DNA from: Marasmius tenuissimus
Taxonomy: Eukaryota > Basidiomycota > Agaricomycetes > Agaricales > Marasmiaceae
Reading direction: 5' to 3'
Assembly (NCBI GenBank): GCA_029532415.1
Contig: JAQOTA010000050.1
Coordinates: forward strand, 6,696,001-6,760,000
DNA length: 64,000 bases
This document shows, in pieces, positions 18,549 through 52,830 of this stretch; position 1 is the first letter of the stretch, and each line of letters starts with the position of its first letter. Made by a program: the position numbers and the translations under genes. Under the pieces are notes generated by a model. That model was given only the letters and a program-made list of their open reading frames with translations. It was not told the origin of the DNA and searched no databases.

Positions 18549-18875
18549 TCGACGTGTGGAAGGCCGGACGGTCGCGCTTTTCTAAACTGATAGCCGCGGA
18601 CATATTGACTATTTTAGCTGTCTGGGATCAAAGGACCCCGGAAACCCAACGACCAGGAACTTCCGAACTTCGAGCTATATCCGGATATCCAGTCCCAGCT
18701 ACTGAGAATGTTTTTCCTATTGCTCATGTTCGTATCAGACTATAAACAATACAGCAAAAGTTTATATCTTACATGAAAGCATAGAACTTGTGAGGTCCCG
18801 GAGTTTTTGAGAACAAGAGTGTAATACTTTTCGCGTCCACACAAAAGCCGGCACTTCCGGCAATCAGCACAAAAC

Positions 18876-20269
18876 ATGTGGACCATGGTGCATGTGACTG
18901 ACGCGTCTTGTTTGTTGACCACGACCACGACCGTGTCAGTCTTGCCTCTCATAGGAGCTGCAGATGTTTGGTGTGTGGACCAGCATGATAAGTGGAAGAA
19001 GTATGGCCTTGGTTTGCATACTGGAGTCGACCCATTCATTGGCCAGATAAAGTGGTTGAAAGTCTGGTGGACAAACAGGAACCCGCAACTTATTTTCTGA
19101 TACTACCTTGACACGATCAGGCAGTTGGGATGTGAGTGATGTGTACTATCCAGCAGCAAATTGTCCTCTCCTTACCTCAGTTTGCCAGATACTAGCCTCG
19201 TTATCCAAAGTGATCCAGGATCCGAGAACTTCTGTCTTGCAAAAGGACATACTTATATCCGGTGTGCACTTGATCTGGATCTTGAAGGCACAATCCAGCA
19301 TCGATGGAAGCGCAAAAAGAAGAACATTCCACCAGAAACTCTGTGGTCAAACCTTCGCCGATGATTTACCCCAGGATTTGAAGATATACTTGACGCACCA
19401 CTGCGTCATCCTCAGCTTTGATATGACCGATCAGATCCCCTCCAATAGTAAGCTCTTTTCTTCAAGAAGATATTGAGTTGAAGAATTGAATGAGTCGGGT
19501 AATATAGCAATGTTTTCAAGTGGGTGTTTATACCTTGGATTCAAGCAGAGTTGGACGGGTGGGCCAATAACTACAACAACACCCGCAAGCGCCACCAAAA
19601 AGACAAAGTTTTACCTCAGGGGGGTTCTCCAAATGATATGGAGGAATACCCAGATGAGTACGGGTTTGTGAACTTCAAGGTGAGTGGTATCCTCCCTGTT
19701 TCTGGTTCAGTACACATGTCCGATTTCTGGTCCAGATCAATATAGATCCCCATGCTACCTACCTTGCTGAAGCTGAACGGCTCTGGGTGCCCCCTGACCA
19801 TGAAGTCTTTGAGCTTGTCCCAAAGGACTTTGCCGTGCTGATTCAGTACATTTATGACAGCCTCGGAGCACCACCTGTAACAAGGGAGAATGTCTGGTCT
19901 GTATACATGGACTTATTAGAGCGGTTGGAACAAGATGATTTGGGAGGGCTTCCACTGTCTGGCTATAACGAGGACGAGGAAAACTACTCTGTCGGAGAAA
20001 GGGACATTGACATGATGGCACAGCTGGCTAAAGATTTGGAGAACCTACAGCCATTGATAGATGATGTGGGGGATGCTTATATGGGTGGAGTAAATGGAGG
20101 ACTCAGGGCTGAAGGAGATGTATGGGATGAAAATGTCCTCGATGCCTATGTCCAGTTCTCATCAGATGAAGAGGACAACGATGCCTATGATGGTAGAGTG
20201 TTGTCTGACAATGAATTAGATGCAAACAAAGTACAAGCACAGGCGTTGGCTTTCAGTGATGACGAGTAG
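18876..20269 (+). pseudogene. Integrase-core (rve-like DDE) transposase pseudogene
   Basis: Exons about 18876-19447, 19508-19679 and 19736-20269 reconstruct the basidiomycete 'integrase core domain' family. Visible are WCVDQHDKWKKYGL (first Asp), HTGVDPF, KVWWTNRNPQL, VIQSDPGSENF (second Asp), EGTIQHRWKRKKKNIPPE (candidate Glu 41 residues after the second Asp), FKWVFIPWIQAELD, KDKVLPQG, and PPDHEVFELVPKDF. An acidic tail closes the protein. Three in-frame TGA stops interrupt it: after the IF of NPQLIF (where WYYL is expected), in NLRR-FTPGF, and before YDRSDPLQ. The N-terminal region before 18876 is not recognisable. Introns are still spliceable. It lies inside the inverted repeats 18555-22310, beside the JmjC gene. 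Confidence 0.82.
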
Positions 20270-20330
20270 AATTAGAACATACAAACACAATAGATATAGA
20301 TATATTTGCAGAGTAGTCTAGAACTGGAAA

Positions 20331-21858
20331 TCATTTCTGAATTCGGGATAATGACGCTTGTGTATCACGAATAGTCTTCAACATCCTCTCAATCCACTCC
20401 AACTCTTTTCCACCACGACCATCACGCTTCGAAAACACAGAACGCCACTGTAAAAGTTCCTTCTGTGAGACTGTCATGAAGTCCTCAAGAGTCCCCTGTG
20501 TATCATCACATACAGTTGAAAACCGTTGCTGGCACTCACTCAAGTAGAACTTGATTGTCCATTGGGCAGTCGAAAAGCCACGAGGGGACCAGAATGCGAC
20601 ACCAAGATGTCCAGAGAAGCTAAAACCAAGACATGCGTGAATAGTGCAGGGCGGAAGCTCCCATGCACAAGGAGCACTGAAGAACACCAACTGGAGACCT
20701 TTCAGCCGCGTGATTGCTTCAGTGATCGTGATTGTTGGGCCATTATTGGGGGACTTGTGCTTCCAGTTGTACAATGTCTCGAGATTCTCCGGTGTACCGG
20801 GCCACAGGAACCACAGCTTCTCTCCACTGACATGGTACATCATCTCTGCTGCACCATACCAATCAATGTGTGGCCCAGTAATTGAGCCAGGAGGCGTGAA
20901 TGCACTGCTCCAATCAGGGGACTTTGACAGGGGTTTCCGATCGTAAACACCGTCAAAGTCATCAGGAAAAGGTGATTGGAGTTGACAGAGTCCCATCCCA
21001 TTTGGGGTGAATGGAACCTTGAGGATAGAATAGAGAGCGGCCTCATTTTCATCGTGTGAGGGTGAGGAATGTGTCGTCGCAGTGAGGAATGTGTACACTA
21101 TATCTCGGACAGTGGGAATGTCAGTGAGATGTCCAAGGATGGCGTGAGATACAATAATGTCCTCTGGTTCTGAGGCAAGAATATCCCCCAAAATTAGAGA
21201 GGGGTGTGGATGTATGATGGAGGATGGACGCTCATGGAATTGGATGAGACATTCGGGTGGTTGATCATCGAGAGTCGCCTGAAAGAAGGGAATATGGAAT
21301 GATGTGGTAGCGATGCAGTCGAGAATGCCCTCAACTGTAGTTGAAGAATTGATGGACACTGTGAAGGGGTTGTTCCACTGGGAGAGTAGATCAGTAACCC
21401 AGCCATTGACTAATTTTTTCCCCTTTAGCATCAATCGCACGGAAAAGAACTGTGTGCATACCTGCAGGGCTACATAGTGTTTTAGTCCGCTTGAGCGGCC
21501 GAGGCTGTTCAGCAATACTATCAGTATTGGGAGATGATATAGCACTGGGCTTTGATGAAGCGTTACGCCACGAAAGTATCCCCCGGTACGGTCGGTACTT
21601 GGCAAAGTTTTTCTTATCGTCTCGCTTCAAGGAGGCAGGAGGTTCGAGTGGGAACTTGACATTCAAAGTGTCATTGCTGAGAACTTGCCAGTGGTCCACA
21701 GATACCTTCAAGTATATAACATCAGGAGAACCCTTTTGGCTCCAAAAATCACCAGGAGCGCCCTCGTCAGGCCGTGGTGAACGTGCGGCAGAATGGCGGG
21801 AATATTCAAACTCCTGGCCAGCTTTGAAGCGGCCTTTAGTCACAGTATAGGAATCCAT
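20331..21858 (-). CDS. JmjC-domain protein (cupin Fe(II)/2-oxoglutarate oxygenase-like), element-borne
   Basis: Exons 21462-21858 and 20331-21409 give 491 aa. The 52-bp intron has donor GTATGC and acceptor ATTAG, the only acceptor nearby that restores the long frame. The JmjC core is seen at about residues 300-400: GSITGPHIDWYGAAEMMYHV holds the HxD metal pair (His313, Asp315), then SGEKLWFLWPGTPEN, and PPCTIHACLGFSFSGHLGVA carries the distal His near 390. Such enzymes hydroxylate or demethylate proteins; substrate cannot be predicted. The N-terminus contains SASRSPRPDEGAPGD-like sequence (ARSPRPDEGAPGDFW) and YRPYRGILSW. An upstream exon (to 22152) ending at a GTAATA donor could splice in frame ahead of the ATG, adding about 80 aa. 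It shares the TIR-bounded unit with a dead integrase gene but is itself open. Confidence 0.82.
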
Positions 21859-22316
21859 ACCCCTAAGTAAATATGTGAGTACATGAAAAAAATAATATTG
21901 ATTGGACTATTACCTTCTGAAGTGAAAGGAGAAATCGGGACGTGGTGGTGGGGTAAAAAGGAGAGTAAGAGTAATTTTTACCCCTTCACTTTCCCATGGG
22001 GTAAATTTTACCCCAACATCCGGGCGCGCGGCAGTTGAATCACATGGTCTAAATCCTTTATACCTACCAGATAGGGACATGTATGGATCATAGCAGGGAA
22101 ACAGAATGCATGAAGGGTAGCTAAACTTGTGAATAGTATCACAGAGTAGCATGCTAATCTAATAAATCAATATGTCCTATACAATTATAATCCTACAAGA
22201 AAATGCTGCTCGGATATCCCTATGAGGGGTATCCGGGGTCCCTGATGGATCCTTGATGGTCCCTGATGGAAGCCTGATACGCGAAAAGCGCGACCGTCCG
22301 GCCTTCCACATCGACG

Positions 22317-46984: not shown

Positions 46985-47110
46985 GGTCACCTTTCAATGC
47001 GTTTCCCCGCATCATTCAAAACGGCCAATACAATTTCATAGCTCCTGCCCATTGCCCAGCGAATAGAACCCTCGGCGCCAACAACGACGGGATGGTCAGC
47101 TAAAAAACGC
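46985..47110 (-). other. Dispersed coding-like fragment
   Basis: The minus strand encodes ADHPVVVGAEGSIRWAMGRS followed by YEIVLAVLNDAGKRIER and a stop. The same fragment occurs on the plus strand at 51897-52015 and, more diverged, near 60804-60900. It appears to be an exon remnant of an unidentified gene carried in duplicated blocks. Confidence 0.5.
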
Positions 47111-51890: not shown

Positions 51891-52830
51891 TCTCCAGCTG
51901 ACCATCCCGTCGTTGTTGGCGCCGAGGGTTCTATTCGCTGGGCAACGGGCAGGAGCTATGAAATTGTATTGGCATTTTGAATGGTGCGGAGAAACGCATT
52001 GAAAGGTGACCTGCAAGCTCATCTTGGAGGCGAAGATCATCTTTCCATTGGGAGAGATGTCGAGGGAAGGTTTTTCTCTTCTATAGGTCGTGATACCCGT
52101 CAGCACAAGACTAAAAATCCCGTCTTCACACCCCAACCAGGGTCCGATTCTGACGGGCGTGGAACAAGGACGGATCAGATACGGTATGAGAGCAAGTATC
52201 CGGTGTGAAGGACGCACGAGACGTAGACAAAAATCATGTCCGTCCAATTTTCTTTACTATCTGTCGCCTATGCTCCCACTCCTAGCTCGTCTCCATTGAC
52301 GTGCTAACGCGGCTGCAAAATGTCGTTGAAGTGTAAGATTGAATATAGATACCGAGGGCTTACCTTCAGCATAGCCTCAGGATCCGTAAAAACCACGACT
52401 TGGGTCGTCAGTCAAGATAACGCGAAGGACATGGAGGTCTAGGTAAGAGCGCGTCAAACCCTAACCCACTGACTCAGGCACAAGTATAGCTTCGGGATTG
52501 GCGCTCCGCTGGTGTTGTCGGCCCGCCGGTCCCCTAATGAGCGCCTTCATTTTCAACGTCTGGGCTCTCATTGGACTCCGCAAAGCTAAACACAAATCCC
52601 TTCAGATATGCGTATTTCCGATGGGTTTTCCCTCCACCCACCTGCGGCCTTCCGTTGCGTGACTTCGGGCTATGGATATCCGAGAGTGCCGCTGTCGGCG
52701 TACAAAATTATACATAGAGAGAACTTGTATCCGACGGCGAACGGCAATAGCTTCTCAGTGGCACTGGCAAATCGTTTTATCCTAGACTCCCGAGGATCTG
52801 GGCCTTCAAGTTTGGAAGCCTAGCCCCAAA
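51891..52830. repeat. Diverged block repeated at 60.8-61.8 kb and, inverted, at 46.0-47.1 kb
   Basis: The block carries the ADHPVVVGAEGSIRW fragment (51897-52015), a CATGGAGGTC...GCGCGTCAAACCCTAACCCA repeat (52430-52540) and a later segment (52660-52800). The same three occur in order near 60804, 61390 and 61690. On the other side, fragment plus tRNA-Asp recur inverted at 47100-46232. Confidence 0.5.

Follow-up and report, generated by a model that had tools for sequence, protein, structure and literature searches.

A probable IS3EU-type transposon of Marasmius tenuissimus carries a JmjC gene, a candidate anti-silencing cargo

A 64,000-nucleotide stretch of the genome of the mushroom Marasmius tenuissimus (assembly GCA_029532415.1, contig JAQOTA010000050.1, positions 6,696,001 to 6,760,000; the whole stretch is called the window here) contains a 3,756-bp transposable element (window positions 18555-22310) in which a decayed transposase gene and an open gene for a JmjC-type oxygenase lie between perfect inverted repeats. 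The explanation that we favor, with rather more confidence than doubt, is that this is a non-autonomous member of the IS3EU superfamily whose JmjC gene is an anti-silencing cargo. Its larger progenitor would have had TATGG or TGTGG ends around an alpha-kinase gene, an rve/IS3-like transposase gene and a JmjC gene, and its insertion would have duplicated 6 bp of the target; the window copy would have lost the left genes and the front of the transposase gene by internal deletion, and would presumably be mobilized in trans by the transposase of another copy. The JmjC gene would be inherited cargo retained by purifying selection. Its product, most likely a KDM2/KDM7-like 2-oxoglutarate demethylase acting on histone methylation, would leave fewer repressive histone marks and hence less DNA methylation at the elements, and so weaken silencing of the family.

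We are highly confident of the anatomy of the element. Its 28-bp terminal repeats, TGTGG... on the left (18555-18582, forward strand) and ...CCACA on the right (22283-22310, reverse strand), are complementary at 28 of 28 positions, and the non-palindromic hexamer TCGACG directly abuts both ends (18549-18554 and 22311-22316), as expected of a target-site duplication; other copies carry different hexamers at this place. A scan for perfect arms of at least 12 bp with an identical 6-mer outside them returned four pairs in the window; 40 order-1 Markov resamplings of the same DNA yielded no such pair. The other three pairs are merely longer inverted repeats, because their flanks are palindromic. 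Within the ends, a left subterminal block (18555-18953, forward strand) is followed by the 3' part of an rve/DDE transposase gene of IS3EU type (18954-20269, forward strand), the two-exon JmjC gene on the reverse strand (20331-21858) and a right subterminal block (21781-22310). Thus the perfect repeats, the hexamer outside them and the tail-to-tail arrangement of a broken integrase gene and an open JmjC gene, all claimed in a first-pass annotation of this DNA, hold up.

Further copies of the element were found in the host genome (71 Mb in 70 contigs). Two of them, C63:790010-796962 and C10:6645098-6648581, have a left block of about 399 bp and a right block of 530 bp in common with the window element, at 97.0-98.9% identity: the left block is 98.7% identical in the C63 copy and 97.0% in the C10 copy, and the right block is 98.9% identical in the C10 copy and lies inside a 1,814-bp match of 96.6% in the C63 copy. 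Each is flanked by a perfect duplication of its own, GGTGTA and AATGAC respectively, which bears out the earlier proposal of a cut-and-paste-type element with 6-bp duplications. Their interiors differ: where the window copy holds the 3' part of the integrase gene and the JmjC gene, the C63 copy holds a gene that we call gene A, an alpha-kinase gene and a JmjC gene without its end, and the short C10 copy holds gene A only. We infer that internal deletions of one progenitor account for all three. Gene A (L009 2447-4899; L010) has no assigned function; one of its exons has 15 genome matches, those in the C63 and C10 copies included, and one match lies inside L012 beside an IS3EU-like transposase gene. 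Among the public proteins, P0003 of another strain is similar to the C63 copy, and those listed include no AAF712 counterpart of P0001, the protein of the window copy, which hints at a presence/absence difference between strains in the P0001-type copy.

An older, full-length relative of 9,151 bp lies at C3:4154227-4163377, with ends TATGGAAAGCCGGACTGCC and the duplication CCCCAC. It contains an alpha-kinase gene on the reverse strand (Pfam PF02816, E 3.6e-8), an rve transposase gene on the forward strand, whose exon-like stretches are open and bear D, D and E, and a JmjC gene on the reverse strand. The last is tail to tail with the transposase gene as in the window, in the equivalent position, and its product is 57% identical to the window protein. 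At the DNA level the shared parts of the two elements have about 68% identity, which means that transposase and JmjC gene were paired before a deep split. The earlier suggestion that the JmjC gene travels as cargo is therefore upheld: integrase and JmjC genes both lie inside the ends of the C3 relative.

An ordinary host gene enclosed by chance, or inverted repeats that have nothing to do with the genes between them, would be another account of the element. The end sequence does occur without the genes (a degenerate 15-mer derived from it matches exactly at 28 places), and shorter copies with the same ends hold neither an integrase nor a JmjC gene as far as these were found. The first-pass annotation had named repeat copies unrelated to the two genes as evidence against its reading. 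Such copies exist in the literal sense; we do not count them against the reading, because this is the usual form of non-autonomous transposon copies. The genome contains ten JmjC matches, and the three close ones (at least 56% identity) all lie inside such elements, at different loci with different flanks, each within ends and a perfect 6-bp duplication. Chance enclosure is accordingly very improbable. The remaining seven matches, whose short loci were scanned for transposon ends, are distant JmjC-like host sequences of 21-30% identity.

The transposase remnant of the window lacks its N-terminal part and has in-frame stops, from which it follows that this copy is not self-sufficient. Its catalytic D, D and E remain readable and align with those of nine public homologues. 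Thirteen of 15 aligned relatives match Pfam PF24764, and five of the 15 match HTH_21 (E 0.01), a domain that we take to be linked to IS3 transposases; a profile built from the 15 transposases found no integrase match in the PDB.

The first-pass annotation had called the element one of an unnamed type, which is too strong, because its features match those of a published fungal group. Fungal IS3EU elements have 6-bp duplications and TAYGG..CCRTA ends, and in those that carry TET/JBP genes the transposase and alpha-kinase genes are in opposite orientations with TET/JBP between them (PMC12730594, Kojima 2025). The present family shares the 6-bp duplications and the IS3-like transposase, has TATGG..CCATA ends in the relatives and an opposed alpha-kinase gene in the C3 copy, and resembles that group also in carrying a 2-oxoglutarate oxygenase as cargo (TET/JBP there, JmjC here). 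The 28-bp perfect repeats of the window compare with terminal inverted repeats of more than 30 bp in IS3EU of Pucciniales, and the deleted window copy has no alpha-kinase gene. Excerpts of PMC10045372 give IS3EU as having TA..TA ends and usually 6-bp duplications, and its sister GingerRoot as occasionally having TG..CA ends. GingerRoot thus resembles the window element in its 6-bp duplications and occasional TG..CA ends, but those excerpts describe it from clubmoss, suppose relatives in animals and mention no JmjC cargo. Kyakuja, Zisupton and Plavaka are likewise DNA transposons of mushrooms whose oxygenase cargo has been proposed to work against silencing, but they belong to other transposase superfamilies and their TET/JBP acts on DNA and is not of histone type (PMC12730594).

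A Polinton fragment or a Ginger element would also have an rve-type integrase; Polintons too make 6-bp duplications, and the excerpts of PMC2836005 give Ginger1 and Ginger2/Tdd an rve-type transposase and TGTNR termini, which resemble the ends of the window element. The same source gives their duplications as 4 bp (5 bp in Tdd), as opposed to 6 bp here, and on this ground we rejected a Ginger identity. We rejected a Polinton identity on the complete C3 element, which at 9.15 kb holds integrase, alpha-kinase and JmjC genes between TATGG ends and has no open frame longer than 366 amino acids; polymerase and capsid genes were given no dedicated search, and introns could hide one. Either assignment is now hardly credible.

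The JmjC gene is annotated publicly as a 491-amino-acid M. tenuissimus protein (P0001), with exons at 21462-21858 and 20331-21409 and a GT-AG intron at 21410-21461, the intron being assigned by visual comparison of the sequence with P0001. Four residues, H313, D315, K330 and H390, are invariant in all seven aligned proteins (P0001, three close homologues and three distant host paralogues), the H-x-D ... H set being the iron triad and K the 2-oxoglutarate lysine. Searched against the PDB, a profile of the family had KDM2A (E 2.6e-4), PHF8 and a KDM7 homologue as its best matches; the alignments printed for KDM2A include HxD, K and H with the surrounding motif and cover fewer than 90 profile positions, and P0001 has no further Pfam domain, in which it differs from KDM2A and PHF8. 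Public protein searches returned four proteins, all from M. tenuissimus, by a method that needs shared 5-residue words and that distant relatives may escape. These conserved residues and profile matches indicate that the protein is most likely an Fe/2-oxoglutarate demethylase of the KDM2/KDM7 kind. The JmjC clade also includes hydroxylases, and the protein might instead act on a non-histone target, as a protein or RNA hydroxylase or a transposition cofactor whose substrate could be the element's own transposase. JMJD6 is indeed one of the profile's weak matches (E about 0.1), but the best ten PDB matches are all named KDM2A, PHF8, KDM7 homologue or JmjC histone demethylation protein 1A, and we regard a non-histone target as improbable.

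The coding sequences were then compared by the ratio of nonsynonymous to synonymous substitution rates (dN/dS). This ratio is 0.178 between the window and C3 genes, at a synonymous divergence (dS) of 1.9, near saturation, and 0.376 between the window and C63 genes, where synonymous changes are in excess (Fisher p 0.004, from rounded counts). Judged by these substitutions, the JmjC gene shows the pattern of purifying selection. Such a pattern bears on one competitor of an anti-silencing cargo, namely that a JmjC-like gene of the host was once taken up by the family and has since been a passive passenger, of no benefit to the element. In favor of this, the JmjC gene of the C63 copy is truncated, the short copies examined show no JmjC gene, and the 15 matches of the gene A exon mean that these elements share sequence with other loci. 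A useless gene should have decayed, however, and the window JmjC gene is open though the transposase gene beside it is broken; further, its position and orientation beside the transposase have been kept across about 32% nucleotide divergence, at a dN/dS of about 0.18. We therefore consider a passive passenger unlikely, though it is the strongest of the alternatives.

The copies also carry the mark of methylated DNA. CpG transitions make up 14 of the 31 assignable substitutions among the three copies with shared ends (9 of 16 in C63, 3 of 10 in C10 and 2 of 5 in the window copy), while only 7-9% of positions lie in CpG (binomial p below 1e-7 for the excess), and the observed/expected CpG ratio is 0.60 in the window element and 0.64 in the C63 copy as against 0.88 in the whole window. 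Because an excess of CpG transitions together with CpG depletion is such a mark, the family is probably a target of host DNA methylation, as far as substitution patterns can tell. This decay fits an anti-silencing role of the cargo and is no proof of it. On the evidence of sequence we put such a role, of which the first-pass annotation had raised the possibility, at even chances, and only tentatively, at somewhat less than even chances, do we propose its specific form, in which the JmjC protein would strip repressive histone methylation at copies of its own family and limit their DNA methylation, a second, independent oxygenase route beside TET/JBP.

Several observations weigh against an IS3EU element with an anti-silencing cargo. 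With regard to classification, the ends of the window element are TGTGG..CCACA as opposed to the published TAYGG of IS3EU; the C3 JmjC gene lies beyond the 3' end of the transposase gene, whereas TET/JBP lies between transposase and kinase in TET-bearing IS3EU; the transposase piece of C3 scores 13.6 bits against PF24764, below the cut-off of 26, and that of C10 had no PF24764 match in the Pfam scan. The placement in IS3EU, made from published descriptions of the superfamily, is a probable one. With regard to the protein, JmjC identity stands on the conserved residues and the profile match to solved JmjC demethylases and is not seconded by Pfam, whose scan called no JmjC domain in P0001-P0004 or the window frames and gave P0001 no match at all (among the three distant host paralogues, two match Pfam JmjC below the cut-off and one does not match), and an AlphaFold2 model of the protein with three homologues has a predicted local distance difference test score (pLDDT) of 31 and is unusable. 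With regard to function, the C63 JmjC gene has lost its end and contains a stop; no JmjC gene was seen in the C10, C5, C7 and L012 elements with related transposases, so that transposition does not generally require JmjC; the C10 (0.80) and C3 (0.76) copies are less depleted of CpG; and by their CpG pattern, copies decay despite the cargo.

If the proposed role is true, the JmjC cargo would correspond, on the histone side, to the TET/JBP cargo in IS3EU and other fungal transposons, the published fungal case of an element's enzyme aimed at DNA methylation, and a JmjC gene kept in the IS3EU superfamily would bring histone marks into the arms race. It would also provide a natural test case, with open copies next to broken ones in two diverged families of a single mushroom genome. 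Some plant transposons may also have captured jumonji genes, although none was found in the literature searched. That literature, which was covered in part so that an earlier report is possible, yielded no JmjC-carrying transposon, and the words 'JmjC', 'jumonji' and 'Marasmius' are absent from the main text of PMC12730594. Within it, the kind of transposon is known and the JmjC cargo is the new part.

Target duplications were tallied over the 11 copies for which both ends were located, comprising eight with window-type ends, the C3 element as a close variant and an 11.1-kb pair in C10 and C5 as a distant variant; L012, L015, L017, L018, L052, L053 and a C7/C30 pair, with one end located, were left out. 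Six copies have perfect 6-bp duplications, three agree at five of six bases, one (C5) has a 7-bp repeat and one (C70) has none. The degenerate 15-mer of the ends has 81 genome matches, 28 exact and 53 with one mismatch, against a control total of 78; because the two totals are so close, the 53 were not taken as ends, although two of them (C41 and C70) still serve as partner ends in the tally. The ends read TGTGG..CCACA in the window, C63, short C10 and C30 copies, TATGG on both sides in C3, C23, C33, C70 and the C10 and C5 11.1-kb elements, and TATAG and CCATA in C41.

The 11.1-kb element at C10:5221239-5232318 (L029/L041/L042) has ends TATGGCAACTGCG, a 38-bp terminal repeat with one mismatch and the duplication TGTAGG; its C5 twin (L028/L040/L043) is 98.6% identical, and the right end of a C7 relative (L027/L050) was not located. 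Elements of this type (C10, C5, C7) have a transposase, an alpha-kinase, which in C10 and C7 shares the orientation of the transposase, and a different cargo with an HxD motif. This cargo is a two-frame protein with an HxD...H pattern, which may be another oxygenase; it had no match in the PDB, and for this reason we do not name it TET/JBP. A further reverse-strand frame of roughly 770-800 amino acids has no assigned function.

Other JmjC-like genes were seen in the genome. Four repeat copies (L036, L037, L038 and L039, in C10 and C30), 78-99.9% alike, encode a JmjC-like protein, without the HxD residues in L036, L037 and L039, and in L036 and L037 the gene is followed by a frame that by eye resembles a Ulp1-type protease; this repeat may be a further transposon whose JmjC-like gene is dead. 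Near a contig end in C19, two JmjC-like genes (L034 and L035) lie 12 kb apart, the one in L034 followed by a frame that by eye resembles the end of an SNF2-type helicase. Elsewhere in the window, an inverted repeat with arms nearly 5 kb apart (47020-47100 and 51900-51990) has a 22-bp perfect stretch at 47080/51917 and apparently extends beyond it on both sides, and a 17-bp inverted repeat at 715-1680 has the palindromic flank GTCGAC.

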